Origin: Lachnospiraceae bacterium
Lineage (GTDB): Bacteria > Bacillota > Clostridia > Lachnospirales > Lachnospiraceae
Assembly: GCA_017427775.1 (NCBI GenBank)
Contig: JAFRSD010000041.1
Location: 62,001 to 126,000, forward strand
Direction of reading: 5' to 3'
DNA: 64,000 nucleotides
A program made the position numbers and the translations under genes. The notes below the pieces were generated by a model. It searched no databases, was not told the origin of the DNA, and saw only the letters and a list, made by a program, of their open reading frames with translations. Within the stretch, counting starts at the first letter, position 1, and each line of letters starts with the position of its first letter. This document shows positions 3,015 to 50,966 of the stretch, piece after piece.

Positions 3015-5504
3015 TTACTTGACACGAACCTTCTTCGTAAGCTTTGTTGCTTCCTTGTAAGGTCTTACCAGCATATAGATCATTCCGGCAAGGATCAACG
3101 CGGATACAGCGATTCCGATTGCATTTCCGTCACCGGTAAATGCGCCGCCGAACTGTTTGATCATCAGGGCGATGATGTAAGCGAATCCGCACTGATAAAG
3201 GATTGCGAACCAGGTCCATTTCGCGTTGTTCATTTCTCTTCTGATCGCGCCGATTGCCGCGAAGCAGGGTGCGCAAAGAAGGTTGAATACAAGGAACGAG
3301 AATCCGGCAACCTGCGTAAACGCAGCACTGATACTCTTGATGTCACCGTACAGAATCCCCATTGTTCCGACGATGTTCTCTTTCGCTACCAGACCTGTCA
3401 CACTTGCAACGGCTGCCTGCCAGTTGCCCCATCCGAGAGGCGCGAACATCCAGGCAATGCCGCCTCCGATGGCCGCCAGAATCGAGCTGTCAATCTCTTC
3501 CTCGGAAAGCATTCCGAACTTACCGTCAATCCATCCAAACGAGGAAGTAAACCATACTACTATTGTAGAAAGAAGGATGATCGTTCCTGCCTTCTTGATG
3601 AAGGACCAGCCGCGTTCCCACATGGAACGAAGCACATTGCTGACCGTCGGCCAGTGATATGCCGGAAGCTCCATAACGAACGGAGCAGGATCGCCGGAGA
3701 ACATCTTCGTCTTCTTCAAAATGATACCGGAGATAACGATTGAAGCCATTCCGATAAAGTACGCCGAAGTGGAAACCCATGCGCTGCCGCCGAAGATCGC
3801 GCCGGCAACCATGCCGATGAACGGAAGCTTCGCGCTGCAAGGGATAAATGTGGTTGTCATGATCGTCATACGGCGGTCACGCTCATTCTCAATCGTACGG
3901 CTTGCCATAATACCGGGCACGCCGCAGCCGACACCGATCAGCATCGGGATGAAGGATTTGCCGGACAGGCCGAAACGGCGGAATATCCGGTCAAGGACAA
4001 ATGCGATACGGGCCATATAGCCGCATGCTTCCAAAAATGCAAGAAGCAGGAACAATACAAGCATCTGCGGAACAAATCCGAGTACCGCGCCGACACCGGC
4101 GATGATACCGTCAAGGATCAGGCTCTTCAGCCAGTCCGCACAATTTGCTTTATCCAAAAGGTTCTCAACCAATACCGGAACGCCGGGTACCCACACGCCA
4201 TAATTGGCAGGATCTACGCCGCCCTCGTATTTTTCGTACATAGCAACTGCATTTTCAAGATCCTCAAGGGAAGCCGTTTCCTCGGTCTCCTCAAGGGTTT
4301 CCTCATCAACGAGGGTATACGGGAACTCTGCATCTTTGCCTGCGTAATTGGCAACGAGGCCGCGAAGGGCGGTTACTGCTGCTGCAGCGTCGTAATCTTC
4401 TGCTTCGGAATCAAGAGCCTCTTCCGCTTCCGCGATGTCAATTCCGTCCGCCTCTGCTTTCGCGAGAAGGCCTTCGATGATCGCGTCGGTGTCGCCGTAT
4501 TCATCCTCGGCATCGGCCGTCTTGCCGGAGCCGATTCCAAACAAATGGTAGCCGTCACCGAACAATCCGTCGTTCGCCCAGTCGGTCGCCGGAGCTCCGA
4601 CGCCTACCATGGCGATCCAGTATACCGCGAACATGATCAGTGCGAAAATCGGAAGTCCGAGCCAGCGGTTCGTTACAACCTTATCGATCTTATCGGACTT
4701 GGTCGCCGCACCTGCATTTTTCTTCTTATAGCAGGACTTGATCACCTCGGCAATATAAACGTAACGCTCGTTTGTGATAATGCTTTCCGCGTCGTCGTCC
4801 AGTTCCTTCTCGGCTGCCTGAATATCCTTTTCAATGTGTGCTAACGTGTCTTTTGAGATCTTCAGCTGCTCAAGTACTTTGTCATCGCGCTCGAACACCT
4901 TGATTGCGTACCAGCGCTGCTGCTCTTCCGGAAAGTTATGTACAACCGCCTCCTCAATATGCGCGATCGCGTGCTCGACCGGTCCGGAAAATGTGTGAAG
5001 CGGCACGGTTTTCGTATGCTTTACGGCGTCAATCGCCGCCTCTGCAGCCTCCATAACGCCGTCGCCCTTCAATGCGGAAATATCAACCACTTTGCAGCCG
5101 AGTCTTCTGGAGAGCTCTGCTTCGTTGATCTTATCTCCGTTCTTCTTTACGACATCGATCATGTTAATGGCTACCACAACCGGAATGCCGAGTTCCGTAA
5201 GCTGTGTCGTCAGATAAAGGTTTCTCTCAAGGTTCGTTCCGTCTACAATGTTCAGGATTGCATCCGGTCTCTCGCCGATCAGATAATTTCTTGCTACCAC
5301 TTCCTCCAAAGTATACGGGGAAAGGGAATAAATACCGGGAAGGTCGGTGATGATAACATCGTTGTGTTTCTTCAGTTTTCCTTCCTTCTTCTCAACCGTT
5401 ACGCCCGGCCAGTTTCCAACGAACTGGTTGGAACCCGTAAGTGCATTAAAGAGCGTTGTTTTACCGCTGTTGGGGTTACCCGCAAGAGCAATTCGCGTAC
5501 TCAT
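3015..5504 (-). CDS. feoB: Ferrous iron transporter FeoB with an acidic extracytoplasmic insertion
   Basis: GTP-dependent Fe(II) import across the cytoplasmic membrane, 829 residues (typical FeoB about 650-780). The N-terminal G domain shows G1 GNPNSGKT (9-16), G3 DLPG (54-57) and G4 NMID (114-117), followed by a helical GDI region to about residue 260. The membrane domain starts near WLGLPIFALIMF (281-292) and includes the conserved CGYMAR and IGVGCGVPG gate regions. Between the first membrane helix and the conserved SLILDGIIAGVG segment (461-472) there is an extra stretch of about 125 residues (310-435), with about 32 Asp/Glu against four Lys/Arg in 329-432. FeoB family members usually have a short loop here. 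It is preceded by two feoA genes and followed by the Cys-rich protein. Confidence 0.97.
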   Translation of the reverse strand: MSTRIALAGNPNSGKTTLFNALTGSNQFVGNWPGVTVEKKEGKLKKHNDVIITDLPGIYSLSPYTLEEVVARNYLIGERPDAILNIVDGTNLERNLYLTTQLTELGIPVVVAINMIDVVKKNGDKINEAELSRRLGCKVVDISALKGDGVMEAAEAAIDAVKHTKTVPLHTFSGPVEHAIAHIEEAVVHNFPEEQQRWYAIKVFERDDKVLEQLKISKDTLAHIEKDIQAAEKELDDDAESIITNERYVYIAEVIKSCYKKKNAGAATKSDKIDKVVTNRWLGLPIFALIMFAVYWIAMVGVGAPATDWANDGLFGDGYHLFGIGSGKTADAEDEYGDTDAIIEGLLAKAEADGIDIAEAEEALDSEAEDYDAAAAVTALRGLVANYAGKDAEFPYTLVDEETLEETEETASLEDLENAVAMYEKYEGGVDPANYGVWVPGVPVLVENLLDKANCADWLKSLILDGIIAGVGAVLGFVPQMLVLFLLLAFLEACGYMARIAFVLDRIFRRFGLSGKSFIPMLIGVGCGVPGIMASRTIENERDRRMTIMTTTFIPCSAKLPFIGMVAGAIFGGSAWVSTSAYFIGMASIVISGIILKKTKMFSGDPAPFVMELPAYHWPTVSNVLRSMWERGWSFIKKAGTIILLSTIVVWFTSSFGWIDGKFGMLSEEEIDSSILAAIGGGIAWMFAPLGWGNWQAAVASVTGLVAKENIVGTMGILYGDIKSISAAFTQVAGFSFLVFNLLCAPCFAAIGAIRREMNNAKWTWFAILYQCGFAYIIALMIKQFGGAFTGDGNAIGIAVSALILAGMIYMLVRPYKEATKLTKKVRVK

Positions 5505-45617: not shown

Positions 45618-48600
45618 TTAGTGGATTTCGCTGTGGATCTCCTGCAGGGACTTTACGCTGTGCTCGCTGTGGGTCTTTACGTAGTGGATACCGTCGGCGG
45701 TTGCGAGGGCTGCTGCCATCGTCGTTACGTACGGTACCTTTGCCTTGATGGCTGCCTTACGGAGGTAGCTGTCGTCATGCAGGCTGTTCTTTCCGATCGG
45801 GGAGTTGATGATCAGCTGGATCTGTCCGTTCGTTATCAGGTCGTAGCAGTTCGGACGTCCTTCATACAGCTTGAGAATCTTCTCGGCGGGGATGCCCGCA
45901 GCGGTCAGACGGTCGTAGGTGCCGCCGGTCGCATAAACCTTGAAACCGTCGCCGACAAGGGATTCCGCAACCTTAAGTGCCTCTTCCTTGTCCTTATCCT
46001 TTACGGAGATCAGTACGTTACCGGAAAGCGGAAGCTTGCTCTGGATTGCTTCCTGCGCCTTGTAGAATGCTTCGCCGTAGGACGGGGAAAGTCCGAGTAC
46101 CTCACCGGTGGAACGCATCTCCGGTCCGAGGATCGGGTCAACTTCGGGGAACATATTGAACGGGAACGCGGCTTCCTTTACGCCGTAGTTCGGGATCGTC
46201 ATTTCATGAAGCTCCGGAACCGGGGACTTGCGTCCGGTCAGCTCGGAAGTGATGATATCGGTTGCGATCGGTACCATGCGGATGTTGCAGACCTTCGAAA
46301 CAAGCGGAACGGTACGGCTTGCTCTCGGATTTGCCTCGATCACGAATACCTTGCCGTTCTCGATGGCGTACTGCATGTTCATAAGACCTTTGACATGCAT
46401 CTCTTCTGCGATCTTTCTCGTGTATTCCTTGATCGTCTTCAGATTTTCCTCGGAAATATGTACCGAAGGAAGGATACATGCGGAGTCGCCGGAGTGGATA
46501 CCCGCAAGCTCGATGTGCTCCATTACGGCAGGGACAAATGCGTGTGCGCCGTCGGCGATCGCGTCTGCCTCACACTCGGTTGCGTGATTCAGGAAACGGT
46601 CGATCAGGATCGGACGGTCAGGCGTTACGCCGATTGCCGCCTTCATGTATTCGGTCATCTGCTCGTCATCGTATACGACTTCCATGCCGCGGCCGCCGAG
46701 TACGAAGGAAGGACGAACCATTACCGGATAGCCGATCTTCGCTGCGATGCCGATTGCATCCTCAACGGTAACCGCCATGCCGGACTCGGGCATCGGAATG
46801 TCGAGCTTCTTCATCATCTCACGGAAAAGGTCACGGTCTTCCGCCAGGGCGATAACCTCAGGAGAAGTTCCGAGGATCTTTACGCCGTTTCTCTTCAGGT
46901 CCGCAGCAAGGTTCAGAGGCGTCTGGCCGCCGAACTGTGCGATCACGCCGAGAGGCTTTTCCTTGTTGTAGATGGAAAGAACGTCCTCAAGGGTGAGGGG
47001 TTCGAAGTACAATTTGTCGGATGTATCGTAGTCGGTCGATACGGTCTCGGGATTACAATTAACGATGATCGTCTCGAAGCCGAGCTTCTTAAGAGCCTTG
47101 GCAGCATGTACGCAGCAGTAGTCAAACTCGATACCCTGGCCGATACGGTTCGGGCCGCCGCCGAGGATCATGATCTTGCGGTTATCGGAGACCGGGCTCT
47201 TATCAACCGGGATGTTGTAGCTGGAGAAGTAATATGCGCTGTCCTTTGTACCGCTTACATGTACGCCCTCCCATGCCTCGGTAAGGCCGATGGCAAGACG
47301 GCGGTTACGGATGTCATCCTCGGACACACCGACAAGCTTTGCGATGTAGCGGTCGGAGAAACCGTCCTTCTTCGCTTTCGTAAGAACCTCGTCGGACGGA
47401 ACCGCACCCTTCTTCGAAAGGAGTGCCTCTTCCTCTTCTACCAGTTCCTTCATCTGCTCGATGAACCACTTCTTTACGTGGGTTGCGTTATGTACTTCGT
47501 CTACGGTCGCACCCTTGCGGATGGCTTCATACATCTGGAAATGACGCTCGCTGGAAGGTGTCGCAAGCTTCTGCATCAACTCTTCCTTGCTGAGGTCATG
47601 GAAGTTCTTGACATAGCCGAGACCGTAGCGGCCGGTCTCAAGGCTTCTGATTGCCTTCTGGAAGGCTTCCTTGTAAGTCTTACCGATGCTCATTACTTCG
47701 CCGACGGCACGCATCTGGGTTCCGAGCTTATCTTCAACGCCCTTGAACTTCTCAAATGCCCAGCGTGCGAACTTGATCACGACATAGTCACCGTCCGGAA
47801 CGTACTTGTCGAGAGAACCGTATTTGCCGCACGGGATTTCCTTTAAGGTAAGACCGGTTGCAAGCATTGCGGATACAAGCGCGATCGGGAAACCGGTTGC
47901 CTTCGAAGCAAGTGCCGAGGAACGGGACGTTCTCGGGTTGATCTCGATAACAACGATACGGTCGGTCTTCGGGTCATGCGCGAACTGTACGTTCGTGCCG
48001 CCGATAACCTGTACGCGGTCAACGATCTTATAAGCCTGCTCCTGCAAGCGCTTCTGTACTTCCTTCGAAATCGTCAGCATCGGAGCCGCACAGAAGGAGT
48101 CACCGGTATGAACGCCCATCGGATCGATATTCTCGATGAAACATACGGTGATCATGTTGCCTTCGCAGTCGCGGACAACCTCAAGCTCAAGCTCTTCCCA
48201 GCCGAGTACGGATTCCTCAACGAGAACCTGTCCTACAAGGCTTGCCTGAAGACCTCTTGCGCAGACCGTCTTCAGCTCTTCCTTGTTGTATACGAGTCCG
48301 CCGCCGGCACCGCCCATCGTGTAAGCCGGGCGAAGTACTACGGGGTATCCGAGGCGGTCGGCAATCTCAAGTGCTTCCTCTACGCTGTAGGATACTTCGC
48401 TTCTTGCCATCTCGATGCCGAGTTCGTTCATCGTGTTCTTGAACTCGATACGGTCCTCGCCGCGCTCGATGGCGTCAACCTGAACACCGATGACCTTTAC
48501 GTTGTATTTGTCGAGAACACCGGCCTTGTAGAGCTCGCTGGAAAGGTTCAGACCGGACTGTCCGCCGAGGTTCGGAAGCAGGGCATCCGGACGCTCCTTT

Positions 48601-48836
48601 GCGATGATCTGCTCGAGACGCTCTACGTTCAGCGGCTCGATATAGGTTACATCGGCCGTCTCGGGGTCGGTCATGATCGTTGCGGGGTTCGAGTTCACGA
48701 GAACGATCTCGTAACCGAGCTTTTTCAGGGCTTTGCAGGCCTGCGTTCCGGAATAGTCGAACTCGCATGCCTGACCGATGATGATCGGGCCGGAGCCGAT
48801 GATCAGTACTTTGTGAATGTCTTCTCTCTTAGGCAT
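45618..48836 (-). CDS. carB: Carbamoyl-phosphate synthase large subunit
   Basis: Makes carbamoyl phosphate from bicarbonate, ammonia and two ATP, for pyrimidines and arginine. 1072 residues, full length. Two homologous ATP-grasp halves each open with an LGSGPI/LGGGPNRIGQ-type motif (VLIIGSGPIIIGQACEFDYSG; MILGGGPNRIGQGIEFDYC, both near the start of each half). The C-terminal MGS-like allosteric domain follows (about 935-1072). ATG 48836 has AGGAGG. carA is not in the window, which is unusual because carAB are generally adjacent. Preceded by a leader ORF and terminator hairpin. Confidence 0.98.
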   Translation of the reverse strand: MPKREDIHKVLIIGSGPIIIGQACEFDYSGTQACKALKKLGYEIVLVNSNPATIMTDPETADVTYIEPLNVERLEQIIAKERPDALLPNLGGQSGLNLSSELYKAGVLDKYNVKVIGVQVDAIERGEDRIEFKNTMNELGIEMARSEVSYSVEEALEIADRLGYPVVLRPAYTMGGAGGGLVYNKEELKTVCARGLQASLVGQVLVEESVLGWEELELEVVRDCEGNMITVCFIENIDPMGVHTGDSFCAAPMLTISKEVQKRLQEQAYKIVDRVQVIGGTNVQFAHDPKTDRIVVIEINPRTSRSSALASKATGFPIALVSAMLATGLTLKEIPCGKYGSLDKYVPDGDYVVIKFARWAFEKFKGVEDKLGTQMRAVGEVMSIGKTYKEAFQKAIRSLETGRYGLGYVKNFHDLSKEELMQKLATPSSERHFQMYEAIRKGATVDEVHNATHVKKWFIEQMKELVEEEEALLSKKGAVPSDEVLTKAKKDGFSDRYIAKLVGVSEDDIRNRRLAIGLTEAWEGVHVSGTKDSAYYFSSYNIPVDKSPVSDNRKIMILGGGPNRIGQGIEFDYCCVHAAKALKKLGFETIIVNCNPETVSTDYDTSDKLYFEPLTLEDVLSIYNKEKPLGVIAQFGGQTPLNLAADLKRNGVKILGTSPEVIALAEDRDLFREMMKKLDIPMPESGMAVTVEDAIGIAAKIGYPVMVRPSFVLGGRGMEVVYDDEQMTEYMKAAIGVTPDRPILIDRFLNHATECEADAIADGAHAFVPAVMEHIELAGIHSGDSACILPSVHISEENLKTIKEYTRKIAEEMHVKGLMNMQYAIENGKVFVIEANPRASRTVPLVSKVCNIRMVPIATDIITSELTGRKSPVPELHEMTIPNYGVKEAAFPFNMFPEVDPILGPEMRSTGEVLGLSPSYGEAFYKAQEAIQSKLPLSGNVLISVKDKDKEEALKVAESLVGDGFKVYATGGTYDRLTAAGIPAEKILKLYEGRPNCYDLITNGQIQLIINSPIGKNSLHDDSYLRKAAIKAKVPYVTTMAAALATADGIHYVKTHSEHSVKSLQEIHSEIH

Positions 48837-48884
48837 TTCTTCATCCTCCTGTGTGTGTTTAGTGTGTGTGAATCGGGTCTATTT

Positions 48885-48915
48885 ATAGAAAAAGACGGAA
48901 TAGAAAACTATTCCG
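48885..48915 (-). terminator. Attenuator hairpin in the carB leader
   Basis: Perfect 8-bp stem CGGAATAG/CTATTCCG with loop TTTT, followed on the minus strand by TCTTTTTC. Lies about 50 bases before carB, between its promoter and start codon. The stop codon of the leader ORF is inside the 5' arm. Confidence 0.8.
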
Positions 48916-48988
48916 CCAAATAGAAAACAATATCCTTATGAAGCTTATTCGTGTCCATATGCAATTTTCCGAAAATCATGTAATGCAT
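48908..48988 (-). CDS. Leader peptide ORF upstream of carB
   Basis: 26-codon ORF (MHYMIFGKLHMDTNKLHKDI then VFYLAE) from ATG 48988 with a strong GGAGG eight bases upstream. Its TAG stop (48908-48910) is part of the 5' arm of the attenuator hairpin. The codons just before it (GTT TTC TAT TTG) make a U-rich transcript segment. This matches the UTP-sensitive pyrBI design of E. coli, where a ribosome closely following a paused polymerase prevents terminator formation. There is no run of one amino acid, so amino-acid-type attenuation is less likely. A CodY-like box (AATTTTCCGAAAATC, 48963-48977, 13 of 15 to AATTTTCWGAAAATT) overlaps the ORF and may be chance. Confidence 0.65.
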   Translation of the reverse strand: MHYMIFGKLHMDTNKLHKDIVFYLAE

Positions 48989-49032
48989 GGTTATATCCTC
49001 CGAAATTGCACGGCCATTTTTTGACCTGATTT

Positions 49033-49062
49033 AATATATCACAGGACCATGGGAAAATGCAA
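49033..49062 (-). promoter_or_regulatory. Promoter of the carB leader
   Basis: Minus-strand TTGCAT (49057-49062), 18-base spacer, TATATT (49033-49038). The -35 continues as TTGCATTTTCCC, the same element seen at the GH30 promoter. Confidence 0.7.
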
Positions 49063-49103
49063 GCGAAAAATGATCTGATTTTTTCATTTTTTTCGAAGGC
49101 TTC

Positions 49104-50966
49104 TCAGTTGGTTTTTCTGCGCCTTTCCTCCGCCATTTTCTTCTTATGCTCCTTGTAGGCCTTTCTGCCCTGTCCGACTCCGGTGGGAATCGGATTGTGG
49201 AGTACTTCGATATACTTGCCGTGATGCATCTGCTGACTTACAAGCGGGTCCAGTTCGAAATACCGGTCAATCTCTTCATCGGTGATATCCGGCTGGAACT
49301 TCCGGCGGCGGAGGCCACCGAATCTCCGGCGGTTATACTCTTTCCAAAAGATCAGAAGAAGGATCTCGATCAAAACGGCAATGAACAGCACAAAGAAGAA
49401 GTGTTCCGTCTGCCGCACCGTATCCGTATTATAGATGAAGAACGAACGGACCGGTTTGCCGAGCAAATCCCGTATGATTCCCACCGCCATGAAAGCGAAG
49501 AACAGAATCATATAGGTCCACATCAATAAGGTAAACAGCGAACCGAGAATCCGCTTCCACAGTTTCTGCTTGTTTTCGTATTCGATATGGGGATCATTCT
49601 CTGACGTGCCTGCGGGTTCCGCGTTCGAAACATTATGCGGTCCTTCCGCGGTATGGTTTTTGATCAGGAAATCCATGTGACCCACGCGGTGCACATTTTC
49701 CTCCGCCCGTTTCTCTCCGCTCTCCTGCTCCTTCTGCTCCCGCTCTGTCTGGGTCAGTCCCCTGTCCGGGCTCTTCCAGGTCGCAAGCTTCTTATTCGGA
49801 AGGATTGCTTTTAAAAGGGAACCGAGTGTGATAAACACGTTGATGTACCAATACAGGATCGGGTACCAGATGACACTCCACGTATTCTTGATCAGGTTTC
49901 GGTCATAATGGGACTCTAACCAGACCGCAACGGCGAACTGTAACAGGCACACAAAGGAAAGGAACTGGCTCTTCCACAGATATTCCGTAAAGACATGCTT
50001 CCCGCGGATTTCTGCTACGATCAGAATGGTGGTCAGCACAAGCCAGCACACCGACCACACAAAAGAGGCAACCTGTTCCAGATAGATCGGCGTCATACGC
50101 CTTCTCCGCCAGCTTTTAAAGATATCCCAGTGGCGGAATACCACTTCGAGCCCGCCCTCCGACCAGCGCTTTCTCTGCCGCCAGAGGCCTTTCACGGTTT
50201 CCGGAACAAGCATCCAGCAAAGAGCCCTCGGCTCATACCGGACATCCCAGAAATTCTTTTCCAGTTTCCAGGTTACCGCGATATCTTCCGTCATCATATC
50301 CCGGTCCCAGAAACCGCAGTCCATGAGTGCCCGCTTCCGGTAAGCGACACACACGCCGGATACGGTCATAACCTTGCCGAGTACCCGCTGCGTCCGCTTG
50401 ATCAGGCTGATAATGCTCGCATACTCGCACAGCTGAATCTTTCCGAGTAGCGAACCGCGGTTACGGACACGGGGATTGCCGGTTACCGCTCCCACTCGTT
50501 CGCCGTTATGACGGTTTACGAAATGAGACACCATGTACCGAAGGGCTTTCTTATCAAGATAAGAATCCGCGTCAACGCCGACCAGGATCTCTCCTTTGGA
50601 AGCAATAAGCCCGAGATAAAGCGCATTGGCCTTGCCGCAGTTTTTATCGAGATCGACGACACGGACACGGTCGTATTTCTCGGACAGTTCTTTCATTACC
50701 TCCGATGAATTGTCCGTACTGCCGTCATTGATCAGGATTACCTCATAATCCGGATAATCCAGATTGACCATCTGCTCCACAACCTGCTGAAGAATCGAGC
50801 TTTCGTTGTGGGCCGGCATAAGAATCGAAACAAACGGCAGATTTTCCGGAATGATTCCATCCTTGTTCCGCTCGTTCGACCAGTAAAACACCAGCGCTCC
50901 CAGTACCCACATCATGGCCATGACTGCCGGGTACCAGAAGACAAACTCCTCTACGATTTTCCACAT
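49104..50966 (-). CDS. Membrane glycosyltransferase, GT2 (exopolysaccharide synthase-like)
   Basis: 620 residues. One N-terminal membrane helix (about 8-28), then a cytoplasmic GT-A domain with PAHNES, NDGSTDNS, the DxD-type VGVDADSYLD, the TED general base (MMTEDIAV) and the processive-enzyme motif QRKRW. Two groups of membrane helices follow (about 300-390 and 470-545), separated by a charged cytoplasmic stretch (about 395-460). Resembles PgaC/IcaA-type poly-N-acetylglucosamine or other beta-glycan synthases. No PilZ domain, so any cyclic-di-GMP control would need another partner. The product is not known. Confidence 0.88.
   Translation of the reverse strand: MWKIVEEFVFWYPAVMAMMWVLGALVFYWSNERNKDGIIPENLPFVSILMPAHNESSILQQVVEQMVNLDYPDYEVILINDGSTDNSSEVMKELSEKYDRVRVVDLDKNCGKANALYLGLIASKGEILVGVDADSYLDKKALRYMVSHFVNRHNGERVGAVTGNPRVRNRGSLLGKIQLCEYASIISLIKRTQRVLGKVMTVSGVCVAYRKRALMDCGFWDRDMMTEDIAVTWKLEKNFWDVRYEPRALCWMLVPETVKGLWRQRKRWSEGGLEVVFRHWDIFKSWRRRRMTPIYLEQVASFVWSVCWLVLTTILIVAEIRGKHVFTEYLWKSQFLSFVCLLQFAVAVWLESHYDRNLIKNTWSVIWYPILYWYINVFITLGSLLKAILPNKKLATWKSPDRGLTQTEREQKEQESGEKRAEENVHRVGHMDFLIKNHTAEGPHNVSNAEPAGTSENDPHIEYENKQKLWKRILGSLFTLLMWTYMILFFAFMAVGIIRDLLGKPVRSFFIYNTDTVRQTEHFFFVLFIAVLIEILLLIFWKEYNRRRFGGLRRRKFQPDITDEEIDRYFELDPLVSQQMHHGKYIEVLHNPIPTGVGQGRKAYKEHKKKMAEERRRKTN

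Follow-up and report, generated by a model that had tools for sequence, protein, structure and literature searches.

Firmicutes are expected to control pyrimidine synthesis through PyrR, whose attenuators (RF00515), known from Bacillus and the lactic acid bacteria, act by transcription attenuation before pyrimidine genes. Attenuators of the trp/his type, in which a leader peptide is followed by a terminator, depend on control codons. In Escherichia coli, pyrBI is preceded by a dedicated short leader ORF (PyrL), U-rich RNA and a terminator; PyrL has 44 codons, runs through the terminator and ends 3 nt before pyrB. At E. coli rph-pyrE, a translated ORF has its end at a terminator lying immediately 5′ of the pyrimidine gene, and in the K-12 DNA a TGA that we take to be the stop of intact rph begins, by eye, 8 nt before the stem. 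UTP-modulated attenuation of pyrBI is treated in the excerpt of PMC4824070, and rph-pyrE in that of PMC6941894. According to the former, the ribosome brought termination in E. coli down from about 90% to less than 10% when a stop codon stood 5 bp before the terminator, an early terminator is out of the ribosome's reach unless polymerase pauses, and the leader stop of trp/his-type attenuators lies more than 20 bp from the terminator. In B. subtilis, polymerase runs ahead of the ribosomes, and terminators are placed close to stop codons (excerpt of PMC7858274), so that the closeness of a stop to a terminator is by itself no proof. Ribosome-mediated attenuation has been reported in a Gram-positive bacterium (excerpt of PMC4191407), the excerpt of PMC2965389 does not mention pyrB or carB, and no such attenuator in Lachnospiraceae was found by title among the matches listed from the open-licence literature. 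New here is a putative leader-ORF version of such an attenuator on a stand-alone carB in a clostridial genus that lacks PyrR.

The carB leader and how it may work

The window, a 64,000-nucleotide stretch of DNA from a Lachnospiraceae bacterium, carries on its minus strand a carB gene behind a short ORF and a terminator (Table 1). The first-pass annotation had placed between a good promoter and carB a 26-codon ORF with a strong GGAGG, its TAG stop in the 5′ arm of a perfect 8-bp hairpin and a U-rich transcript just before that hairpin. Our analysis found the ORF, the Shine-Dalgarno (SD) sequence, the stop and the U-rich stretch as described. The terminator stem has 10 pairs including one G-U, the inner eight being perfect, TTTTTC follows it, and it was the sole terminator found in positions 48700-49300, where shuffled sequences gave an expectation of 0.5. 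The promoter elements were also present as stated, but "good" was a generous word for them: the -35 matches the consensus at 3/6 positions, and a consensus promoter scan picked another site and left this one out. A -10-like region resembling that of the window is visible in relatives too.

Table 1. Features of the carB region, in coordinates of the window.
Feature	Position	Strand	Basis
Promoter-like TTGCAT-N18-TATATT (TTGCAT 49062-49057, spacer 18 nt, TATATT 49038-49033); TG one base 5′ of the -10 (extended -10)	49033..49062	-	sequence
P0, small 5′ hairpin GGUC/GGCC	49012..49026	-	MFE fold of the window
P1, hairpin UGCAAUUU...AAAUUGCA, encloses leader SD and start codon	48959..49011	-	MFE fold
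Leader ORF Shine-Dalgarno GGAGG	48997..49001	-	sequence; 8 nt 5′ of ATG 48988
Leader ORF, 26 codons, MHYMIFGKLHMDTNKLHKDIVFYLAE, stop TAG (48910-48908) in terminator stem	48908..48988	-	sequence
U-rich stretch TTGTTTTCTATTT preceding the terminator	48918..48930	-	sequence; 25 nt before stem are 56% U
Intrinsic terminator, stem-loop 48917-48894 and U run 48893-48889	48889..48917	-	fold, terminator scan
carB Shine-Dalgarno	48845..48849	-	sequence
carB, carbamoyl-phosphate synthase large chain, stand-alone, without its own carA	45618..48836	-	NF003671 1471.9 bits, TIGR01369 1333.2 bits

The gene upstream of the leader (49104-50966, minus strand) resembles a poly-GlcNAc synthase (PgaC) fused to a PgaD domain. 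Elsewhere in the same genome (G000:C13:24000-43000), a second carB stands beside the only full carA; by eye, their cluster also holds glutamine synthetase, an ammonium transporter, asparagine synthase, pyrG and purF. Because the carB of the window has no partner carA, a single small chain may serve both CarB large chains.

We read the leader as a translation-coupled transcription attenuator of pyrimidine synthesis, and we give this reading, built on the arrangement of the sequence, a probability of about 0.52. RNA polymerase would start about 110 nt 5′ of the terminator (predicted start) and by default would stay ahead of the ribosome; the hairpin would form and transcription would end before carB. 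Low UTP would slow polymerase in the U-rich stretch just 5′ of the stem. A ribosome on the leader would then reach the stop at or in the 5′ arm and cover that arm, and polymerase would read into carB. Among the leaders described below, the start stands 58-74 nt 5′ of the stem, a distance at which termination should prevail by default and readthrough would need polymerase to pause in the U-rich stretch. From this anatomy we infer leader translation, pausing and readthrough.

The first-pass annotation had likened the layout to that of pyrBI. The comparison holds for a dedicated short leader ORF that passes through U-rich RNA into a terminator before the gene; the carB layout is nearer to rph-pyrE, because its stop sits at the stem, whereas the leader ORF of pyrBI continues past the terminator. 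From rph-pyrE it differs in that a short dedicated ORF takes the place of an enzyme gene, in the stop lying at or in the stem itself, in its target, carB, and in its Lachnospiraceae host. With the trp/his type it shares a leader peptide followed by a terminator, but its stop is at the stem and no run of codons is kept. By analogy, the carB leader may work like the rph-pyrE and pyrBI attenuators, as a candidate member of their class.

As the first-pass annotation had suspected when it saw no PyrR-type binding loop, control by PyrR found no support in the genus. None of 22 genomes encodes a PyrR protein over the cut-off, in searches that were positive in B. subtilis and other controls, and none has a PyrR RNA site (RF00515); in 20 of the 22 the only phosphoribosyltransferase matches were weak, none above 44 of 138 bits, and the site was also absent from 20 further pyrB and carB loci. 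PyrR control was rejected on these grounds, in contrast to the attenuators of Bacillus. A known riboswitch or RNA leader family was likewise rejected, since no Rfam family matched the window at its gathering score; the best weak match to the leader region reached 20 bits against the 58.7 needed.

Conservation of the leader within the genus

The genus sample of 22 genomes includes that of the window (G000). An alignment of relatives, proposed by the first-pass annotation as a check, bore the layout out: the ORF, the stop at or in the stem and the U-rich tract are kept in the 14 of the 22 genomes that have the leader. A covariance model built from these 14 leaders recovered the same 14 and gave two additional weak hits in the genus (E 0.0067 and 0.044). 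In one leader-bearing genome (G001) the contig ends inside the hairpin, with the carB behind it out of view. Four genomes (G006, G017, G015 and G011) have the orthologous carB without the leader, and in the remaining four the start of the orthologous carB was not seen. In a tree of CarB proteins, the 14 from leader-bearing genomes, three of them fragments, fall on one side of a single branch (support 81/83), a result compatible with a single origin of the leader.

All 14 leaders have a GGAGG- or AAGGAG-like SD sequence and a frame open for 19-27 codons, compared with the 44 of PyrL. The stop takes one of two positions relative to the stem: -1, as a TGA at the stem base (8/14), or +7, as a TAG (6/14). 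The six TAG leaders make up the sub-clade of the window; there the frame misses the TGA at the stem base and terminates at the TAG inside the stem. In 13 of 13 sequences the leader frame has no stop 5′ of the stem, and in 10 of the 13 stops interrupt one or both of the other frames. The peptide itself varies freely. Among leaders of equal length, 15 comparisons that leave out the near-copy G012 gave 129 codons with an amino-acid change and 22 with a silent one, as a plain count; the differences were spread over all three codon positions, with equal numbers in two pairs. Translation up to the stem thus looks to be what is kept, and the peptide product not. An open frame, a fixed stop position and a free peptide fit a ribosome that acts as a steric blocker, and not codon sensing or peptide arrest.

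The same leaders bear on control by arginine or by CodY. CarB also supplies arginine synthesis, and leader codons could sense that amino acid; the window's leader has no arginine codon, each of the other 13 has at most one, and no conserved run of control codons was seen by eye across the 14. Arginine-codon sensing was rejected on the codon counts. CodY is encoded in 21 of the 22 genomes and could bind the box that the first-pass annotation had noted over the leader, which differs at one specified base from what we take to be the CodY consensus, AATTTTCNGAAAATT. That suggestion fared poorly: by eye, a near match occurs only in the window's closest pair of the 14 leaders (G000 and G012) and is absent from the other sub-clades, and the box lies inside the leader, about 55 nt 3′ of the -10, instead of at the promoter. 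CodY control through this box was therefore rejected, and we regard arginine or CodY control as a whole as very improbable.

A further possibility is that P0 and P1 form a sensor, in which a metabolite or protein would open or close the leader ribosome-binding site and leader translation would then decide termination. P1 encloses the SD sequence and start codon in the window, the first 82 nt fold more stably than shuffles (z = -2.9), and the folds of this region are alike within the window's sub-clade. Over 13 sequences the mean z is about -1.1, weak or absent structure being the rule in most other relatives, and for P0 the folds of single sequences differ from the MFE fold of the window. An arm-swap test of P1 on eight representatives found 1588 of 40320 permutations as good, the pair counts of P0 and P1 were no better than shuffles in a MAFFT alignment that misplaces P1 by one base, and no Rfam family matched. 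The modelled 5′ hairpins around the leader ribosome-binding site are thus weakly supported, convincing only in the sub-clade of the window, and a sensor made of them appears unlikely.

For the terminator, 98.3% of stem cells are paired across the 13 sequences whose contigs contain both arms, with no compensatory changes in the stem; one terminator (G010) has a poor U run. The 25 nt 5′ of the stem hold 40-64% U in the 14 leaders, and the remainder of the leader 18-26%. Before the 93 gene-end terminators sampled from the window's genome, U averages 26% (sd 12%), and 2 of the 93 reach the 56% found here. In G002 and G007 the carB ATG lies 27-28 nt past the stem, too near for a second promoter, so that there transcription can reach carB only through the terminator.

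Readthrough of that terminator could be constant. A leaky, unregulated terminator would set a fixed low level of carB, or the leader could yield a small RNA or a peptide that has a separate function. A mere leak sits poorly with a stop-stem distance held at one of two values in 14/14 leaders, with the kept U-rich stretch and with the like arrangement before pyrB in 22/22 genomes, and a product with a separate function would be expected to show sequence conservation, of which the peptide has none. We consider this explanation quite improbable.

The end of uxaC before pyrB, and the choice of signal

Since no PyrR was found in the 22 genomes, other pyrimidine genes were examined. In the window's genome pyrB lies on another contig, directly 3′ of uxaC (glucuronate isomerase, identified by profile in this genome and by likeness in the others), and is followed by pyrI. 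All 22 genomes of the genus have pyrB 3′ of uxaC (L095 = G000:C20:42000-58000; L072-L093). Hairpins at the end of uxaC were sought by script, the criteria being a mismatch-free stem of 7-12 bp, no more than one G-U pair and three or more T among the eight bases that follow. Every genome has one, with a stem of 9-12 bp. The uxaC stop lies in the loop of this hairpin in 21 of the 22, and across the arm-loop edge in G011. By eye the stems belong to four sequence families; the pyrB ATG comes as close as 40 nt past the uxaC stop (G021); and U makes up 36-52% of the RNA 5′ of the stem in 20 parsed genomes, with a value of 48% for that of the window. No such element was seen 5′ of pyrK in the three genomes examined. 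The plan resembles that of E. coli rph-pyrE, and by its sequence layout uxaC-pyrB is probably a second attenuator, controlled like carB, here through the end of uxaC.

Base rates were taken from 872,662 bases, a third of the window's genome, picked partly to include pyr loci, in which 708 ORFs gave 93 gene-end terminators. The stop lay inside the hairpin in two of the 93, uxaC-pyrB and a weak terminator with a poor T tail (L348), which was set aside on inspection. A relaxed hairpin finder returned 15 hits from 643 ORF ends, three with 9 or more bp (uxaC, L348 and L373); the stop was in the loop at uxaC and at the poorly tailed L348 (2/643), and at L373, a 10 bp hairpin with the tail TTTTCGGG, it was in the 3′ arm. 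A scanner for short SD-led ORFs ending in a terminator 5′ of a gene, its thresholds fixed after the carB leader was known, found that leader as its single match among 90 upstream terminators. Together with the recurrence of the layout in 14 of the 22 genomes, this marks it as more than a chance arrangement. Three further loci (L351, L379 and L381) have a stop 7-8 nt 5′ of a terminator, with a gene on the same strand no more than 120 nt away; by eye none of them is a pyrimidine gene. At L351 the downstream gene has an apparent promoter of its own. At L379 (G000:C11:60001-80000, reverse strand, about 14680) the stop is 8 nt 5′ of a strong terminator and the next same-strand ATG follows too closely for a promoter, and a close stop and terminator before a tightly spaced gene are therefore not confined to pyrimidine genes. 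What speaks for regulation is instead that other promoters have no room, that at carB and pyrB alike the stop falls within a strong terminator hairpin, that carB has a dedicated leader and that the approach is U-rich.

The anatomy by itself names no signal. The same ribosome-gated arrangement could answer to general translation capacity, to a ribosome-stalling drug or to a ppGpp-driven change in polymerase speed, and both the Gram-positive precedent cited above and the close stop-terminator pairs before non-pyrimidine genes in the window's own genome lend this some weight. On the other side, both cases of a stop in a strong hairpin precede pyrimidine genes, in a sample chosen to contain both, U-rich RNA comes before the carB hairpin and the pyrB hairpin alike, and the peptide is unconserved, which speaks against stalling that depends on a drug or on the peptide. 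We judge a signal other than UTP to be somewhat unlikely. UTP is the signal that we infer, from the target genes, the U-rich stretch, the free peptide and the like anatomy at pyrB.

Related arrangements in the wider family and what they would mean

A survey of pyrB across the family searched 120 genomes, of which 116 were over the cut-off, and 115 loci were scanned besides that of the window's genome, one per genus. A terminator within 260 nt 5′ of pyrB was found in 20 of the 115 and none in the other 95 genera, with at least one (L255) missed by the finder. In nine of these 20 genera a nitroreductase-family gene precedes pyrB, assigned by Pfam in three of the nine and by C-terminal likeness in the others, in a layout like that of E. 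coli rph-pyrE: the first base of that gene's stop lies 6-13 nt 5′ of the stem, with the pyrB start 23-66 nt 3′ of the stem. At one of these nine loci (L233) U before the stem is merely 16%; two tandem Clostridiales-1 RNAs (RF01699) lie near the pyrB locus there, at 3210-3563. L237 has TGATTTTTAAGG in common with E. coli rph-pyrE. At L340, uxaC and a terminator are followed by an apparent separate promoter before pyrB.

Two loci have leader ORFs that are both unlike that of the window. At L255 (G104), in another genus, the short SD-led ORF MFQITICKNRLLPFHFHKTITTHKR overlaps the 5′ terminator arm in a pyrBI-like manner and starts about 165 nt before pyrB; at L173, in another Lachnospiraceae genome, a U-rich leader ORF with its TAG in the stem starts about 205 nt before carB. 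L173 was the one judged convincing of ten carB loci inspected. The script-based survey of carB leaders covered 80 loci, missed the start in 19 and flagged 8 of the remaining 61, including one from the genus itself (G004, L155). The covariance model of the 14 leaders was also run on 299 family genomes, with stricter filters that lose weak matches, and returned G000, G002 and one terminator look-alike in G111. This look-alike (L055), by eye between rpsO and pnp, has a near-identical stem, GACGGAGTAG...CTATTCCGTC, probably by chance. Two other carB loci were noted in passing. One is a second carB start at a contig end (L017/L057, G011:C27); the ORF before it stops at a hairpin that has a T run, and does not resemble the leader of the window. 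In the other (L018, G043, from a different family), the 150 nt before carB hold a structured leader whose terminator-like hairpin ends in TTTTT and which has no Rfam match. As far as these sequences go, the survey of the wider family indicates that the stop-at-terminator arrangement is clade-bound, yet occurs with different upstream genes.

Taking the loci together, we tentatively propose that a genus without detectable PyrR senses UTP by a race between ribosome and polymerase at two genes, those of the first two steps of pyrimidine synthesis, through a leader ORF before carB and through the end of uxaC before pyrB, and that other genera build the same switch from a nitroreductase-family gene. 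UTP-sensing attenuation by the ribosome is known from enterobacteria, and a conserved switch at carB and pyrB would explain how pyrimidine synthesis is controlled in gut clostridia that lack PyrR. If the proposal is true, it means functional coupling of transcription to translation at these loci, and this in a phylum where runaway transcription is seen in the model species; the carB and pyrB switch would give a natural reporter for whether the two are coupled in this group. It would also suggest that switches of this kind arise repeatedly, whatever the upstream gene, by the setting of a terminator at its end.
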